Part shown: positions 2,563-57,936 of the stretch, piece by piece
Layout: each line of letters starts with the position of its first letter
Numbering within the stretch: the first letter of the stretch is position 1
Assembly (NCBI RefSeq): GCF_000220395.1
Contig: NW_004086444.1
Span: forward strand, 124,001-188,000
Length of the DNA stretch: 64,000 nucleotides
Reading direction: 5' to 3'
From: Ichthyophthirius multifiliis
Lineage: Eukaryota > Ciliophora > Oligohymenophorea > Hymenostomatida
Position numbers and translations under genes: made by a program
Notes under the pieces: generated by a model
The model's input: only the letters and a program-made list of their open reading frames with translations
Databases searched by the model: none
What the model was told of the DNA's origin: nothing

Positions 2563-4917
2563 ATGAGTAAAGAAAATTTAGATTTTTAAATCGAAGTTGA
2601 AGAAAACAATCAATAACAAGACCAATACAGATAAGAAGAATAATAAAATATGTATTAATAAAACGAAATGTAACATTAAGACTAAAGCCAACCTTAAAAT
2701 GATAATTAATAATATAAATAAGATTAAAATATGAATGAATTAGAATCCTAAAAAGCAAACCAATAATATACATAGGAATAATAAAGGACTTTAAGTTAAG
2801 AAGAATAGTAAAACATTTATAACGAATTTAAAATTGCCATTAGAAATAATAATATTGAAAAGGTTTAGGATGTGATAAGTAATAGAAAATACAAAATTTT
2901 TATATACTTATATATATATATATACAATTTTTTTTTTCCCCCTTTTTAAAATTTCTCTTTAATAAATTTAAAAAAAAAAATAAAAAAAAAAATAATAATA
3001 AAGATATCTTATTATTTTGTTTTTTTTGCTTATTTCAATAAATAAAAACTTAACAAAACAAATAATAAAAATAGGAAAATATTAAAAAGACTACGATATA
3101 ATAAATAAAATAGACTCATAAACTCGTTAAATATGCACTTATTTAGCCGCTTGCCTACCAACAGACGAATAATGCTTTAATATGTTAAAATTATTAGTAG
3201 AATCAGGTATTTATTAATCTAAATATATTAAAAATTTAGAATTTAAATAAAGGTGCAAATCCAACATTCAGAGATTAAATAAACTAATCCATAATATTTT
3301 ACTTAGCCCGAGATGGGAAATTAAATTCCCTTAAATTTATAAATTAATTAGGTTGTGATGCTAATGAGATTGATATAAATGGCTAAACACCTTTATTTTT
3401 TGCTTCGAGAGACAATAGATTAGAAATAGTTAAAGAATTATTAGCTAAAGGTGCAAATACATATCATGTGGATAAAGTTTGCTAATAAACTGCTTTATTT
3501 TATGCAGCTAGAGAAGGTAATAACGAAATTTGTAATATTTTAATTGAACACGGGTGCAAAGTAAACCATTAAGATGCTTAGAAGAAAAACGCGATTTTCT
3601 TTGCCAAAAAATTCAATAAAAAGGAAACTGTGGATTTATTATAAGCCCATATAAATAAATTAAAAATTAAATAAGAAAAACCATAATAATAATTAATGTA
3701 ATAATAATAATTATAATAATAATAACAATAATAGTAATAATAACAATAATAGTAATAATAACTATAATAATAAATAAATACTGCTACAAGTAGTAATACA
3801 GGACATAATTTGGCTGTTTTGAGTGAAAAGAAAATTTAAGAAAACAATTCTTAGAATAATTAAAATATTAATTTAGCAAGTAATAATAGTAATAGTAATA
3901 TTCAAGATGATAAAAAAAAATCTGATAATAATTAAAAATCTCTTAAAAGAAAAGCTCCAAAAGATGCAGCTAAAATGTCTTATAAATTAGGTATTTTTTT
4001 TATTTATTTATAAATATATGTATATTTTAAAAATAAAATTAATTTATATTTTATTATTTTTATTAAAAAAATAAAATAATTAATATATATATTATAAAAC
4101 TTTTTGATATTTATTTTCTTAAAAAAAAAAAAAAATATTATAGTTTATACTAATGAAAACGGATAATAAACAGAATTAACTAAATCTGAATATAACGAGT
4201 TTAAAATAAAATATCCAGAAATAACTAAAATCATTGAAAATGCAGATGAAATGATTAATGAGGATATACTAGGAAAAGAAAAAGATGCATGGGAAAAAAT
4301 CGCTAAAAATATTCTTTAAATTATTTCAAAAGCAAAAGGATGTTATTTATTTTAATAACCTGTTGACGTTGTTAAATATTAAATACATGATTATTACGAT
4401 ATTGTTAAAAGACCAATGGATTTAGGAACTATTAAAGTAAATAAATTATACTTATTTTTTTGTTTTATTAATTTTTTGTTTTGTTTTTATTTTATTAAGA
4501 ATAAATTAAATTGCAATGTATATGAAAGTTGTAAAGAATTTATAGAAGATGTAGAATTGTAAAAAAAATTTAAAAAAAACTTGAAGATTTATTTTTTATA
4601 TTAATTAGAGTTTTTTATAACTGTATTTTATATAATGGATCAGATTCTGAAGTTGGAAAATTTGTTTAAATATTAAATAAGAATTTAGAAAAGTATGTAT
4701 TGAAAAAGATATTTATTAATTCTTAACACCTAATCAAAGTATAGCAAAAATAAAAAAATTAATATATTTATTTATTTAATGATAAAAGTGAATAATTATT
4801 TAGCTGAAATAAATGCTGGATAAGATGCAGCTTAAAAAAATATATAATAGTAATAGTTATAAGTTTAATAATAATAATAATAATAATAACAATAATAATA
4901 ACAATAATAATAATAAC

Positions 4918-4948
<31 letters not shown>

Positions 4949-5254
4949 GTAATAATAATATTAATAGATTTAATAATAACCTTAATATACATAATAATAA
5001 ACCATTTAATAATTTAGTTAATAAAATTAACCATAAGTCATACAATAAGTATAATAATAACCAGTTTAAAGTTATTCTTATTAACCAAATTAATATGGAA
5101 ATTATGATGCATATAAATAATAAGGAGGAAATCCTTACTAAAATTATTAAACTAATTAAAATTATTAAATGTATTAAGAAGAAATATTAATTATTAAAAC
5201 GGACAAAATATTCTAGAATAATAAGATGAAAATCATGAAGGCATAAATCATTGA
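2563..5254 (+). CDS. Ankyrin-repeat and bromodomain protein (BDP1-like)
   Basis: Probable chromatin reader. Order of parts: a Gln-rich acidic N-terminus (MSKENLDFQIEVEEN); several ankyrin repeats, seen as LVESGANPTFRD, NGQTPLFFASRDNRLEIVKE and QTALFYAAREGNNEICNILI; a polyQ linker (about 3690-3780); a basic stretch; then a bromodomain with FQQPVDVVKYQIHDYYDIV, KRPMDLGTIK, the Asn-containing helix FYNCILYNGSDSEVGKF and a long polyQ tail. The Asn of LYNG is the usual acetyl-lysine-contacting residue and is present. Ankyrin repeats followed by a bromodomain is the architecture of apicomplexan BDP1, so this may be an old alveolate gene; orthology is inference. At least four introns (near 2880-3090, 3206-3250, 3990-4140, 4440-4495). 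The end is taken at the TGA 5252-5254, which requires one frame change near 5190 after the polyQ region. Confidence 0.85.
4862..4990 (+). repeat. (TAA/CAA)n polyglutamine microsatellite
   Basis: A run of TAA codons with a few CAA and TAG, read as Gln inside the ankyrin-bromodomain gene. Standard-code translation of other frames gives spurious poly-Asn, poly-Ile or poly-Leu peptides here. Confidence 0.85.
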
Positions 5255-5616
5255 AAGAAAATAAAATATTATTATTATTATTAATAAAGATTTTATAAAT
5301 AAAATTAATTTTGAAAAAAAAATTATTTTACAAAAAAACTTAATTTTTTTTTATTATTAATTTATGTATTTTTATTATTTTTATAAATATACAACTTTTT
5401 GTTATTATTATTTTTTTTTTTTTTCTTAATTTCTTTTAAATTTTTAAATTTTTTTTAATTTTGAAAGAAAATAATTTAAATCTTTAATAATTTTTTTTTT
5501 TTATTAATAAACTAAAAATAAAAAAATACACATTATTTTCAATAATCTATAAAAATAAAACTATAAATAGCTTCTGCTTTTAAAACAATTTAATTAATTA
5601 AAAAGAAATTAAAACT

Positions 5617-6590: not shown

Positions 6591-7312
6591 TAGTTTTAAC
6601 ATTGTTAGAGAAGATCAAGACTAGACATATTTTTATATATAATTTTTTAATAAGATTTTTAAAAAATATAAAATTATATAAAATATATAAAAATAATAAA
6701 ATATACATATTTCCTTTAATTAGAATATACTTCTATTTATTTTACATTCATTTTTATAAAAAAAGAATAATATTTATATTAATTTTTATTTTTATTTATA
6801 AAGATTTGTTCAATTTTATTTTTTTAATTGAAAAATATTATTTAATCTATAAATTATAATTTTTTTCAAATAAATATCATATTTATTTTTATATTCATAT
6901 ATTATATATTTGTATATGAATTAATATTTAATATTAACATATTATATTATATTATATTATATATTATATATTATATTATATAATAATATTTTTTTTAGTA
7001 AAAGAGTAAATATTTTTAAAATATATTATAAAAAAAAAAGATTATAATAAATTTAAAGAAAATTGAAAATGAATAAAAAACTTTGAAAAAATACTTAATT
7101 AAAAAATATATATATATCATTTTAATATTAAATATTACAATTTTTAAATTTTGATTAATAAAAACTATTTTTAGTATGATTTTATTTAATAAATATATGA
7201 GAAAATTAATATGGATAATATTTTTTATTTATTATTATAAATAAAATCTTAATAAATATTTAATTAAAAAATATTATTATTAATTTATATTTATATTTTT
7301 TTGTTTTAATTT
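6591..7312. other. Divergent intergenic region, AT repeats
   Basis: Spacer between two divergently read genes. It contains a run of imperfect TATAT/ATTATAT repeats near 6930-6985. The open frame at 6602-6859 is hydrophobic Ile/Phe/Lys/Tyr-only sequence as expected from random AT-rich DNA and is not called. Confidence 0.55.
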
Positions 7313-8050
7313 ATGTTTTAAATAATATTAATAATTTGTTTTCTCATAAAATATTTTAATTGCTGTTAACTAAGTGGATATGAAAGTGGTTAATGTGTTG
7401 AATCATTAAATTATATAAATGAAATAAAGTTTTGCTAATAATATTTATTTTAATATATTTGCATACCTAAATAAAGAGTATTATTAATATATAATTATAT
7501 AAATAATCAAACTTTATATATTAATATTTATAAATAAAATTCTAAAAGGAAGTTTGGCCAGATTATACCGTTTCTTCAAAAGACTAATTAATTGAAGATA
7601 TATTTATATAAAACATCGAATAATAATTTGTGAAAGAACTAAGTTCAAAGTAAATAATATAAATTTTAGCATTTTTTTTTTTTTAAAAAAAATATTAATT
7701 AAAATAAATTTTATTTTTATCTATTTATAGTTACAATGGATCTATAATACTATTAAATTATCAAAGTTGTTTTTATTCATATAAAGAATTTTTATGTAAA
7801 TGGAATTTTCCCAATTGTATATATAATGGTAATAATAAGTATTATTTTATTTATTTATTTTTTAAAAATATAAAGAAAATTAAACTTAGCCGATTTGTTA
7901 ATCTTATTGTGAATCATATTTTGATAATTGCAAAGTTATTTTTTATATTAAATATATTTGTTTATATTTAACTAATATTGTTAGTTTGATTCAACTTCTT
8001 GTGCACTTAGTTACTAAAATAAAACTCCTGGATTAAATGAAGATTGTTGA
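7313..8050 (+). CDS. Small secreted protein with Frizzled-CRD-like cysteine domain
   Basis: Predicted secreted or surface protein. Spliced reading begins with a signal peptide (MFQIILIICFLIKYFNCC, cleavage likely near CCQL) and continues as a cysteine-rich domain: GQCVESLNYINEIKFC, ICIPKQREVWPDYTV, SCFYSYKEFLCKWNFPNC, PICQSYCESYFDNC, ending TPGLNEDC and TGA. The LC...FP.C block followed by C..YC..YF..C is the cysteine pattern of Frizzled-type CRDs, which occur in many protist surface proteins. No transmembrane segment follows, so it is probably released or membrane-associated through partners. Introns are near 7481-7550, 7648-7730, 7830-7875 and 7939-7982. The ligand is unknown. Cysteine content is far above that of its neighbours, which supports a real folded extracellular protein. 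Confidence 0.8.
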
Positions 8051-48552: not shown

Positions 48553-51002
<2,450 letters not shown>

Positions 51003-51640: not shown

Positions 51641-52162
51641 ATGTCTTAAATAAAACTTAATATTAAATATTATGTATTCGACTCTGAAATAAATCAAAAT
51701 TTAATAAAATCTTTATATCCTTCAGTTATATAATAAATTGTTAAAAACCCAATTGAACGTTACAATCATTTTATAGAAGTTTACAACTAAGAATTTAATT
51801 AAGTGAAAAACATTACTTTATAGAAATTACCTACTTTGAAATTGGATGAAGAGATAAGTTTTCAATAACTTGAAGAAATTATAACTACATTCTAGTTGAA
51901 TCATTAGAAATTATCATATAATAGATGTTATGAAAAAATGAAACAAATCGATAGTTTTTCTAATATTAATGATAATTAATAATAATTTTACATCTTTAGC
52001 TAATTCTAAAAAAAAATGATCTCTAACAAAAAAAATGATAATTACTTAGTTAATAATTTAATTACTTTATATAGCTTAGACTGGGCTCAATAAAATGACG
52101 AAGCTTATAATTAATTATGTAACATTACTTAATATTACTAAAATTTATAATAAAAAAGCTGA
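51641..52162 (+). CDS. Unknown intronless protein of 173 aa
   Basis: Uninterrupted frame from ATG 51641 to TGA 52162, reading MSQIKLNIKYYVFDSEINQN, LIKSLYPSVIQQIVKNPIER, YNHFIEVYNQEFNQVKNITL, YNRCYEKMKQIDSFSNINDN and ITLYSLDWAQQNDEAYNQLC. Composition is balanced and clearly coding, probably alpha-helical and cytosolic. No family is recognised. The absence of introns is unusual among its neighbours. Confidence 0.75.
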
Positions 52163-52719: not shown

Positions 52720-53747
52720 TCATTCTATTTATAGTACCATTTATAATGTTTATATAATAAATTCTAATATTCCTTAAAATAAATCATTTATTATTTAATC
52801 TAATAAAACTATAGAAATAATACATTATTAATTTGGATAAAAATATATTTTCATTAAAAATGTTATATCTTTTAAAATAAATTAACCCCCAAGTTTAATT
52901 TAATTAAGACCAAATGCATATTAACTTTATTATTCTTAATTTATTTATATTAAACCTTAAAATAAATTAATAAAATCATTTGCGCTTTTGGCTATTTGTT
53001 CATCTATATATATTTGTTCGCTTCTAATAATATTATTTTTATTTAATTTCCATAAATATTTAAATTATTTTTATTAAATTTTAATGCTTTAGAAATATTT
53101 ATTTATAGTATTTGGTATACAGAATTAACTTTAATTAACTTCTTATTAAAATCTATAAAAATAAAATTAAAAATATTGCTTTTAATATTTATAAAAAGAA
53201 ATACTTGTATAAGATATTAGCCTTTAAAATTTAATAAGGTATTTGTGTAAACTTAATTGTAATATTTAATTTAATTTATGTATTAGGATTTAAAACTTAT
53301 TCGAAATTTTCAGGTTCTTTTAAAGTTATAGCAACATTGTTTGATTCTTAGATATTAATAGATAGATTATATATAGGAGTTATAGATTTATTAAAAAAAT
53401 ATATAGAAACATGCAATAAAAATGTATTCTCATATTATTTATTAACAACATTTGTTGCAATTCCAATTTAAATCTATTCGTTTTCATATAGTGGGTAATT
53501 ATTTTTCACACAAGATTTTCTAAATTTCAAAGGAATACTATTTTAATTTAAGTATAAATTTTCAAATAAATATTCATTAAATTTAATTATTTTTCCTTTG
53601 GGTTCTCTAAAGGTTTTCTTTTCTAAATATTCTAATGGATTTTAAAAGGGAAATATTAAAGCAACACTTTCATTATTATAAAGATTTTTTTATTTTTTTA
53701 ATGGAATTGTTTTATAATCTATAAATAATAAAAACAATATTTAAAAA

Positions 53748-53780
<33 letters not shown>

Positions 53781-56680
53781 TTATATATATACTTATATTT
53801 TATTTATTTTATATTGATTAGTTTGTTCTTTCTAAATTTTTATTATTTCTCATTCTTTATAATGACTAGTCATTATAATTATCTTATATTGTTCTATTTA
53901 AGTATTTACTTTATATTTATGCTAATTCAGATAATTTTATGCCATTTTTTTTTGATTGTCTTTTTTATTCTTTACTTTTTTGTTTTAAATTACTTTCTCC
54001 CATTATAGAATCATCTTTTAAATATTTAAATATTTTTTTTTATTTTTTTTATACCTTTTTTATTATTTAAATTTCTATAATTTGAAGGAGAAAATTGATT
54101 TTCATCATTTTCTATATCGTTTAAATTTTTAATAAAATTTCTTTTTGATCTTGGAGTATTTTTTTCTAATAAATTATCTTATTTTTTAAATGTAAAATAA
54201 TTATTAATTTAAATATAAAATTTAATTTACAAAAAGAGACTAAGGAATTTTCTTCTCCAAACATTTAATTTATTCTTTATATTAATTATTAATTTATTTT
54301 TTATAAATTTTCATTTTCTTTTTTTATTTAATTAATATCTTTTATATTATTCTCTTGTTATTATTTTTTATAATCATCTTTAAATTATATGATTTATTCT
54401 TCATATTATTTTATAAGATTTTAAAGTCTTGTTTCACTATTTTCTTATTCTTATTTATTCTTTTAGTTTTTTCTAATTCAATATTAAGTTTTTAAATTTA
54501 TTAATTTAATTTTTAAATTTCAGAATTTTAAGAATTTTAAGCCTTCGTTTTAAAAATTTCTTCTTAATATTATTAATTTTCTTACTATATTTTTATAATG
54601 GTTTATTGATTTTATTTATTTAACTAAGTAATTTTTTGAATTTATTAAATTTATTCTTATATTTTTGAATTTAAATTTTATAGTTAATTTTCATTTTCCT
54701 AATTTAAATTATTTATTTTTTCTTGCAAATTCTTAATTTCTTTTTTTAATAATTATTCGTTTTATTAAAACTGTTAAATTTTTAATTTAAAAATTCTTTT
54801 TCATATTCAAAATTTTTATGTAATTCTTCAGTTTTTAATTCGATTTCTTTCTAATTTCCATTATTATTTTTAACTAATTTTTTTTCTTTTTCTAAACTAT
54901 TTATTTTATTTTTTAGAAATTCAACTTCTTTTTCTAATTAAGACTTTTAAGTGTTCGTAAATTAAATTTCCTAATCCTAAAATTTAATGTCTTAATCTAA
55001 TTTTAACTTAAATATATATATATTAATAATTATTATAAAATATTTTATATACTTTTTCAGTTTTAATTTTATTAAATTCTGTATTATTTAATTATATTAT
55101 TAATTCTAATTCCTTTATTTATTTTAAATTTTAGTTTTCTTTTTCTTAATACTCTTATATTTTTATTTCAAAATGTTTTATTTATTACAGAAACTCCTTA
55201 TTTTATTTTTGAATCAAATTTTATTCTTCTGTATTTAATTAATTAGTATTTTAAAAATTAACTTTTTAAATGTGTTATTAATTTTAAATTTCAGTATTTT
55301 AGACTTACATTTTAATAATTTCTTCTTAATATTATTAATTTTCCTACTATATTTTTGTAATGGTTTATTAATTTTATTTAATTTACTAAGTAATTTTTTG
55401 ATTTTATTAATTTAATTCTTATATTTTTGAATTTAAATTTTATAGTTAATGTTCATGTTCTTAATTTAAATTATTTATTTTTTCATGCAAATTTTTAATT
55501 TCTTTTTTAAATAATTATTCATTTTATTAAAACTAAAGATTTTTTTAATTTAAAAATTCTTTTTCATTTTCGAAATTTTTTTTTAATTCTTCAGTTTTTT
55601 ATTCAATTTCTTTCTAATTTCCACTATTATTTTTAACTATTTTTTTTCTTTTTCTAAACTATTTATTTTATTATTTAGAAATGCAACTTCTTTTTCTAAT
55701 TAAGATTTTTAAGTATTCAAAAATTAAATTTCTTAAACTTAATATTTAATATCTGATTCTAATTTTTACTTAAATATTTATATATATATTAATAATTTTT
55801 ATAAAAATAATTTTATATACTTTTTCAGTTTTAATTTTATTTAATTCAGTATTATTTAATTCTTTATTTTATTCTATTTGTATTATATTTTAGTTTTCTT
55901 TTTCTTAATACTCTTATATTTTTTTCTCAAAATACTTTATTTATTATAGAAATTCTTTATTTTATTTTTGAATAAAATTTTATTCTTCTGTATTTTATTA
56001 ATTAGTGTTTTATTTTTATTATTTTTCACTTATTAAATTTTATATATTTTATTATTATTTTTACAATTCCTTTTCTAAATGTTAAATTGTTTTATTATTT
56101 TCTTATATTTATTTATTTTATTAGCTAAGTGCTTATTTTAGCATATTAATTTCCTAATCTTTCATTTGCAAATCAAGATTCTTTTTTTAAATTTCTTCTT
56201 ATTGACTTTCTATTCCAGATTACTTAAAAATTTTAATATTTTATTTTGTTAAATATAAATAAGTAATAACATATTTACTTTTTAAACTCCTTTATAAATA
56301 CTAGCCTTGCATTTTAAATTATCTAAACGAGATAAAGAAGACGCCCTTTCAATATCACTAGAAGATCTAACCGAATTGCGTTTATCAACTTTAATTTTTT
56401 CTTATTCAACCATTTAATCTATTGCTTTTAAAAATTTATTTCCTTTAGCTCCTGAGTTTCCATTATCTTTAGATATAGTTGATTCTTCACTGTTATTTTT
56501 AAAAATACTTTACTTTTCACTCAGTAAAGAAATGCTATCTTTCCTTTTATTTTCAAAAGGGGTAATATTATTGCTACTATTTTTATTTTCTTTATAATTA
56601 CTATTTTAAGACACATTAGAATTATTAAAAGCTTTTTAAAAAAGACTCTTTTTTCTATTTGTATTAGAATTTTAAAGCAT
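52720..56680 (-). CDS. Coiled-coil protein with C-terminal alpha-adaptin appendage domain
   Basis: N-terminal Ser/Asn-rich head (MLQNSNTNRKKSLFQKAFNN, RKDSISLLSEKQSIFKNNSE, KRNSVRSSSDIERASSLSRL), about 650 residues of coiled coil (EKEVAFLNNKINSLEKEKK, NQLLKKEIKNLQEKINNLNQ), a linker (NTPRSKRNFIKNLNDIENDE, IKLSELAQIQSKYLNRTIQD), then an AP-2 alpha-type ear. In the ear, KFRKSCVKNNYPLYENEQIQ and IGIATN match the appendage beta-sandwich start; FEQVLNPNTQIKLNITIKFT, KANILYKFQQEVNQSQFC, IPNTINKYFQSIKI, and KQFKYLWKL match the sandwich-platform junction (LP.T.NKFFQP...FF..WK). The adaptin trunk is absent. Such ears recruit endocytic accessory proteins, so this may be a trafficking tether; inference. 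End is TGA 52722-52720. Introns near 53165-53215, 53715-53815, 54015-54055, 54185-54235, 55005-55060, 55765-55830 and 56230-56280. Confidence 0.82.
54470..56015. repeat. Internal tandem duplication of about 765 bp
   Basis: Two adjoining copies (about 54470-55240 and 55240-56015) match closely at an offset of 762-768 bp, for example around 54601 and 55363, 54725 and 55487, 55051 and 55819. Each copy contains coiled-coil exon sequence and one short intron, so the duplication happened at DNA level inside the gene. Confidence 0.9.
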
Positions 56681-56732: not shown

Positions 56733-57494
56733 TCATTTTATATAAAATACATTTTTTCTAAAGGAAGATAACATTTATGTTATTTTAATTAGTCGAATAT
56801 CAAGGAGTATTCTGATTTTTCTTTATTTTATTTAAATATATATGTTTGAGATAATATATATAAAGTCTCTATTAATATTTTAATGAAAATATTTCCGAAT
56901 TTCATTTAATCGAAATCTAGTATTATTTATTAATTTTTATTTAATTTTTATTTTTATTTTTACTTGGATTTTAACTAAAAAATAACTATCCAACTCTATC
57001 TTCTGTTTTATTTTTAGAATTTTATATTGCCCATTAAGATAAAATTTATATTAAAAAATGGTCTTAAAAATATTCTAAAAATTTTATACGTCCTTATAAT
57101 AAGCATTAACTTAAGAACTAATTTATATTTTAAATAAGAAAAATATTAATTTTTGTTGGTTTATAATTAATAAAAATTGAAAAAAATAAAAATATTCTTA
57201 CATAAATTGTATTTAATTTTAAAATCATTGAAGATTACTCATTTGTTAAAATGTCAGTTATAATTTCACAATATTAATTGTAAACATCGCTATATTTAAA
57301 AATATAAATATTTTATTTAAAAATTATAATATATTTATATTTATTATTTTTCTTATTAATAAAATAATTTAATACTCATTATCTTCATTTATTTTATTTA
57401 TGTATTAATCTAGTTTATTTAATCTGAATTTGTCAGTCTATATATCATATATATCATCCTTATTTAAATCTTGTTTGAGTTAGTCAAAAATCAT
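56733..57494 (-). CDS. Small unknown protein with several introns
   Basis: Not recognised. Spliced reading begins MIFDQLKQDLNKDDIYDIQT, DKFRLNKLDQYINKINED, and after an intron near 57290-57375 continues DVYNQYCEIITDILTNEQSS. Later exons read SQVNAYYKDVQNFQNIF and, near the end, KIRILLDIRLIKITQMLSSF with stop TGA 56735-56733. The helical, Leu/Ile-patterned C-terminal end is somewhat like small subunits of replication complexes (GINS-type), but this is too weak to name. Its stop is only 52 bp upstream of the next gene's start. Middle exons (56900-57180) are uncertain in frame. Confidence 0.45.
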
Positions 57495-57855
57495 TTATTT
57501 GTATAATTATTAATTTATTTATTAATAAATTTTGATTATTTTAAAAATTTTGTAAAAAAAAATTTTTAAATATTTATATATATTTTTTTAAAAAAATATA
57601 AAATTAATTTCATTTCATTTTATATATGTATATATATATTAATAATATTTTTATTATAAATTTATTTATTACTAATTAAATTTATAAAGTTTAAATTTAG
57701 TATTATTTCTTCCTATATATATTTGAAAAAAATTATATTTAAAATATAAAAATTATAATGCTTATATAATTTTCTTTTAAATATATTTTTTTAACAAGTT
57801 AATTTAATTTTAAGCGATAAATACTATTTATTTTCTTATAAAAATAAAAAAAATT
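57495..57855. other. Spacer downstream of the tRNA and upstream of a protein gene
   Basis: AT-only. Directly after the tRNA 3' end (minus strand) there is an eight-T run interrupted by A (57843-57855), a good RNA polymerase III terminator. Confidence 0.55.
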
Positions 57856-57936
57856 GGCAGCTGTGGGATTTGAACCCACGCGGACTAGGTCCAGACGATC
57901 TTAAGTCGCCCTCCTTAACCACTCGGACAAACTGCC
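57856..57936 (-). tRNA. tRNA-Leu (anticodon UAA)
   Basis: The 81-nt minus-strand sequence folds as a class II tRNA: acceptor GGCAGTT paired with AGCTGCC, D arm with GTGGTTAAGG (A box), anticodon stem GGCGA/TCGTC with loop CTTAAGA giving anticodon TAA, a long variable arm (GGAC-CTA-GTCC), and T arm GTGGG-TTCAAAT-CCCAC (B box GGTTCAAATCC). The long variable arm and UAA anticodon identify Leu, reading UUA, the commonest Leu codon in this genome. No intron and no encoded CCA, as expected for a nuclear eukaryotic tRNA. It is by far the most GC-rich short segment of the window. A T-run terminator follows. Confidence 0.97.

Follow-up and report, generated by a model that had tools for sequence, protein, structure and literature searches.

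The 64-kb stretch of Ichthyophthirius multifiliis DNA analysed here (the window) carries a gene whose predicted product ends in an AP-2 alpha-type appendage, or ear, preceded by a conserved N-terminal domain and a long coiled coil, with no adaptor trunk found. The gene belongs to a family of paralogues, and a canonical AP-2 alpha is encoded separately in the same genome. The window gene is not unique, there being at least 13 ear loci in the genome and published trunkless alpha-ear proteins in Myzozoa. On balance, it is probably a ciliate branch of the KAE/KIC kind, namely a GGA-like adaptor extended by a coiled coil, the ear of which would recruit an Eps15-type network.

The appendage and the gene that carries it

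The genetic code is that of ciliates, as long frames in the 64-kb window (GC content 14.6%) stay open only if TAA and TAG encode glutamine and TGA is the stop. The ear gene was modelled from an ATG at 57494 to a TGA at 52722-52720, with ten introns of 40-86 nt, all of them GT-AG, and a length of about 1394 codons if frame breaks are ignored (Table 1). Some 1080 residues precede the ear, comprising the N-terminal domain, a linker, the coiled coil, and a second linker. The initial annotation had envisaged 700 residues of coiled coil and linker at this place, without a trunk; the coiled coil and the lack of a trunk hold, but the length was too short and the composition left out the N-terminal domain of exons 1-4.

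Table 1. Position and basis of each part of the ear gene, in window coordinates.
Feature	Position	Strand	Exons and basis
Whole ear gene model	57494-52720	minus	11 exons; own exon/intron model, no transcript
N-terminal domain (VHS-like), 175 aa	57494-56753	minus	Exons 1-3 plus the first part of exon 4; paralogue profile match
Low-complexity linker	56752-56279	minus	Remainder of exon 4; translation
Coiled coil	56222-54231	minus	Exons 5-7; heptad test
Linker	54177-53793	minus	Exons 8 and 9; translation
Alpha-ear sandwich subdomain	53527-53205	minus	Inside exon 10 (53718-53205); Pfam, PDB matches, alignment
Alpha-ear platform subdomain and stop	53152-52720	minus	Exon 11; conserved INKYF...F..LW motif

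A tRNA-Leu gene (TAA anticodon; 57855-57936, minus strand) lies about 360 bp upstream of the start of the ear gene. On the plus strand, a tubulin-tyrosine-ligase-like (TTL/TTLL-like) gene of several exons occupies approximately 48632-50280, its hand-joined exon pieces matching Pfam TTL at E 1.6e-40, and a single frame of 173 aa (51641-52162), for which no Pfam match was obtained at E 0.01, stands tail to tail with the ear gene.

Sequence comparison confirmed that the last two exons, between which a GT-AG intron of 52 nt falls close to the boundary of sandwich and platform, encode a C-terminal AP-2 alpha-type appendage with both sandwich and platform. When the window ear alone was searched against the PDB with phmmer, eight matches were returned to E 1, the first seven being alpha-adaptin chains (best E 5e-4), and Pfam Alpha_adaptinC2 matched it at E 1.7e-5 with 25.5 bits, slightly missing the curated cut-off of 27.6. 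A profile of nine paralogous ears gave 22 PDB matches to E 1, led by seven alpha-adaptin matches (best E 1e-9) and followed by 15 to histone demethylase chains, none of them better than E 0.12. Using part of the mouse ear as the query, the window ear was found at E 2.9e-5 and outscored all 2000 shuffled decoys. Every decoy was outranked by six of the ten ciliate ears tested with this query, clearly by the canonical AP-2 alpha, L033, L032, and the window ear, and narrowly by L030 and L034; L031 and L035 were outscored by at least one decoy, and the matches listed did not include L029 or L036. The match to solved alpha ears extends from the sandwich into the beginning of the platform, while the remaining platform assignment rests on conservation among the paralogues and a loose alignment. 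Structure prediction from single sequences was uninformative for both ear exons (pLDDT 33 and 42), and an ear query in a large protein collection gave 706 candidates, none of which was scored, and reached no other ciliate. As the ear proper starts at about 53527, its length is about 250 residues; the initial annotation, in which the last 320 residues were assigned to the AP-2 alpha ear, was therefore correct as to the domain, as the Pfam and PDB matches attest, but not as to its size, the 320 residues including about 60 of linker.

The N-terminal domain and the coiled coil

Exons 1-4 code for a conserved N-terminal domain that is common to the paralogues and, judged by profile comparison, is homologous to theirs. 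A profile built from L029, L030, and L031, with the window held out, found the window domain at E 5.4e-12 and that of L033 at E 9.7e-6, both above 1000 shuffles, and in the reverse test, made with a profile of the window domain and L033, L030 and L031 outscored every one of 1500 shuffles and L029 ranked beneath the best shuffle. The positions of introns 1 and 2 are also common to the window gene and L033, as compared by eye. Across the 13 ear loci, the domain is clear in five (those used for the profile), weak in L036 (E 0.0037) and L051 (E 0.0066), and recognisable by eye in L034; no signal was obtained in L032, L035, L049, L050, and L052 within the stretches searched, which were of 9.9 kb or less.

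The domain appears to be VHS-like, although its identity as VHS is suggested by weak statistics and is not proven. A four-row profile gave four PDB matches to E 10, all four to GGA VHS domains (best E 0.0057, which is weak), and a five-row profile gave six, the top four being GGA VHS (E 0.086-0.16) and the other two 14-3-3; the fifth row thus worsened the best VHS value from 0.0057 to 0.086. A control profile of reversed sequences returned three matches, all to unrelated proteins. Searched alone against the PDB, the window domain gave three matches, none of them VHS, and the domain of one paralogue gave GGA2 VHS as the second of three, after plexin. Pfam scans of the window gene and of single paralogues did not detect VHS. 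The GAT domain of GGA and KIC4 was not found either: scans of single paralogues with Pfam showed none, a PDB profile search of the paralogous helical region past the N-terminal domain gave three unrelated matches at E > 1, and no GAT-like helical region was identified by eye in the window gene. The remainder of exon 4 (the low-complexity linker) matched no credible family in a Pfam scan.

The plain tether of coiled coil and ear that had first been proposed for this locus is not what the fuller gene model suggests: a VHS-like domain precedes the coiled coil, and the whole therefore has the look of a GGA/AP hybrid. A golgin-like tether, in which the N-terminal domain would be a lineage-specific helical domain other than VHS and the ear would capture vesicles instead of recruiting coat factors, nevertheless retains some plausibility from the length of the coiled coil and the weakness of the VHS statistics. 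We consider it unlikely, given that the best PDB profile matches of the N-terminal domain are GGA VHS domains and that KIC4, with VHS and appendage, provides a published architectural parallel (PMC10718435).

A coiled coil in exons 5-7, with approximate limits as in Table 1, is supported by the heptad pattern of the translation. The hydrophobicity at positions a and d was examined in six segments: in three of them 0, 0, and 8 of 500 shuffles attained the observed value, and in the other three 64, 66, and 196 of 500. By the best-28-residue measure, only one segment stood out (5 of 500 shuffles), with 44 to 359 of 500 reaching the others, and the linker of exons 8-9 showed no sign of heptads, its value being reached by 475 of 500 shuffles. 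Self-comparison revealed a tandem duplication within the coiled-coil exons (54439-56122), whose copies are 83% identical, are offset by about 780 bp, and include an intron; over 260 codons, the two copies differ at 56 first, 37 second, and 61 third codon positions.

Three apparent frame changes were seen by eye within the coiled coil (near 55640, 54800-54740, and 54470), with no plausible intron visible at any of them. The earlier statement that the exons join in one frame through introns consequently stands for the ear and fails at these three sites. The breaks may reflect either a pseudogene or assembly error. Were the window copy a decaying pseudogene, the fusion would be real in its ancestry while no full-length protein was made from this copy, and frame changes that look intronless are what would speak for it. 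Against this, the changes lie, by eye, at or near A-rich runs in DNA of so low a GC content, where sequencing or assembly may well have introduced indels; the flanking exons are open with GT-AG splice sites; and the tandem copies differ less at the second than at the third codon position, a weak sign of constraint. Decay of the window copy is judged to be unlikely.

Paralogues and the separate AP-2 alpha

The genome searched comprises 45 Mb in 937 contigs, that of the window being labelled C418. With the window ear as query, eight other contigs were matched at E no higher than 4e-5, and the use of two paralogous ears as queries added C547, C872, C918, and C279, which the profile of the first nine ears matched, in a search of a small local set, with E between 5e-10 and 2e-24. 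The counts of trunkless ear loci are lower bounds, and contig C365 (L053) was left out of the 13. The N-terminal domain of L053 is nearly identical to that of L031 on C592, one of the two contigs being short, and these near copies may represent a recent duplicate, an allele, or an assembly copy.

Several paralogues hold the ear and the sequence upstream of it in a single open frame. That of L033 runs for 886 residues and contains most of the N-terminal domain (profile positions 52-159 of 159), a helical/coiled-coil region, and the start of the ear (the first 78 of 247 ear-profile positions), whereas that of L029 contains the coiled coil and the whole ear in 823 residues; in L036 and L032, too, a single frame runs from long upstream sequence into the ear. 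These single-frame paralogues make it unlikely that the locus would yield two transcripts, one for a coiled-coil protein and the other, from a promoter of its own in between, for an ear protein that stands alone. The boundary is indeed AT-rich and holds an intron at 53792-53719, but the splice joints in the window preserve the frame, and the two-gene arrangement, which we hold to be very improbable, was rejected. In L050 (oriented 6607-8033) and L035 (oriented 3378-5384), long low-complexity stretches upstream of the ears contain short F-D-F-like, WG-like, and NPF motifs that are reminiscent of adaptor ligands.

The absence of a trunk was assessed by an Adaptin_N search of the genome, in which only the best candidates were scored. 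The 28 scored matches fell on 12 contigs; none was on C418, and none of the 13 ear loci lies on a trunk contig. The claim of an alpha-type ear attached to a coiled-coil protein with no AP-2 trunk is hence upheld. A separate normal AP-2 alpha gene, the search for which had been proposed with that claim, was found on contig C240 with a trunk and its own ear, and the top PDB match of its protein was AP-2 alpha (residues 4-880 of 985, E 7.8e-122). The AP-2 alpha subunit has therefore not been replaced by the window gene, and the notion that the latter is a divergent AP-2 alpha, which lost or exchanged its trunk and still joins the AP-2 complex, is rejected as extremely improbable in spite of its alpha-type ear, given the gene on C240 and the lack of any Adaptin_N match on C418. 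A genome search with PF02883 yielded three matches, on C278 and C861, both with a trunk and in our own reading AP-1 gamma-like, and on C592, which belongs to the trunkless ear family; a search with PF02296 gave no match, its control likewise matching nowhere.

Related adaptors and a possible role

GGA adaptors contain a GAT domain, a clathrin-binding hinge, and a gamma-type ear of a single domain. The ciliate gene resembles them in its appendage, which comes last, and would share the adaptor plan with VHS first if its N-terminal domain is of that kind; it differs in its long coiled coil and its two-part ear, which is of alpha type instead of a gamma type without platform. With the AP-2 alpha subunit it shares the ear, but no trunk was found in it and the genome has its own AP-2 alpha.

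The closest descriptions are those of apicomplexan proteins. Toxoplasma KAE carries a C-terminal alpha ear on a larger protein with coiled-coil motifs and without the AP-2 alpha trunk, and coexists with a separate AP-2 alpha (PMC10105704), as in the ciliate. The latter differs in its number of ear loci and in its VHS-like N-terminal domain, the text of PMC10105704 naming no other conserved domain in KAE. Plasmodium KIC4 is a VHS-GAT-appendage hybrid, said in 2023, on the basis of InterPro, to be unseen in other proteins, and TgKAE has been named as its homologue (PMC10718435). The ciliate gene shares with KIC4 the C-terminal adaptin appendage and, should its N-terminal domain prove to be VHS, the GGA/AP hybrid plan as a whole; KIC4, however, is described with GAT and with a platform subdomain of beta type (PMC10718435), whereas the ciliate gene has no supported GAT, an ear of alpha type, and a long coiled coil in between. 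KIC5 has an alpha-type sandwich and platform without Adaptin_N, as does the ciliate gene, while VHS is not reported for it in the portions of the paper drawn upon (PMC10718435). The ciliate gene thus combines features of KIC4 with features of KIC5, a likeness drawn from published descriptions. A split between AP-2alpha and KAE has already been stated for all alveolates in one paper. No description in text of a ciliate KAE or of this combination of domains was found in the literature, and the supplementary figures of PMC10105704 may show ciliates.

Functional data exist for the parasite proteins. The ear of Toxoplasma KAE, unlike TgAP-2alpha, binds Eps15L, and this binding depends on WxxF (PMC10105704); KAE knockdown caused a strong growth phenotype. 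Disruption of KIC4 or KIC5 produced no endocytosis defect detectable in the assay used (PMC10718435). KAE/KIC4 proteins are found at the parasite uptake site linked to artemisinin susceptibility (PMC10718435, PMC10105704), and K13 is apparently absent in ciliates (PMC10105704).

By extension to the ciliate, the VHS-like helical domain would bind membrane or cargo, the long coiled coil may dimerise and extend the molecule, and the two-part ear could recruit endocytic partners to coated pits, its partner probably being a scaffold of Eps15/EH type that bears WxxF-like aromatic motifs. Such an adaptor would act beside the AP-2 tetramer and not within it, because it has no trunk for sigma, mu, and beta and a normal AP-2 alpha gene is present. 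More speculatively, it is conceivable, though short of probable, that an adaptor of VHS, coiled coil, and alpha ear predates the split between ciliates and Myzozoa, took over part of the recruiting role of the AP-2 alpha ear, and expanded to more than 12 paralogues as AP-2-independent recruiting arms at endocytic sites, in organisms for which K13 is reported absent. If a ciliate family does have a similar plan in many copies, the hybrid would be older than both parasitism and K13, and it would become testable in model ciliates should they carry the family. The matter also bears on how the AP-2 ear separates from the AP-2 complex.

Ears were aligned in mouse numbering, the last columns aligning loosely, and compared at positions that we take to line the motif pockets of the alpha ear. 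In the trunkless ears, G725 and an aromatic residue at 740 are each present in seven of eight and Q782 in all eight, whereas positions 725, 740, and 782 are all Q in the AP-2 alpha of this genome; by this alignment and the pocket roles so assumed, its sandwich pocket is altered. Position 840 is W, F, or Y in nine of nine trunkless ears and W in the AP-2 alpha, and position 905 is K or R in eight of eight and Q in the AP-2 alpha. K727 is lost from all eight trunkless ears and retained in the AP-2 alpha; G742 is retained in one of the eight, and the residues at 837, 907, 916, and 920 in none; these positions argue against binding having been retained. With a profile built from the trunkless ears, part of the mouse ear scored 41.9 bits and the AP-2 alpha ear of the ciliate itself 16.6 bits, while the mouse-ear query scored that AP-2 alpha best (38.1 bits) and the window ear at 21.2 bits. 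Since pocket residues are partly kept and partly lost, a division of roles between the trunkless ears and the AP-2 alpha ear is suggestive only. No literature on these pocket residues was found. The pocket pattern is reminiscent of the contrast between KAE and TgAP-2alpha in Toxoplasma, and an EH-domain match was obtained in the ciliate genome on contig C768 (E 2e-9).
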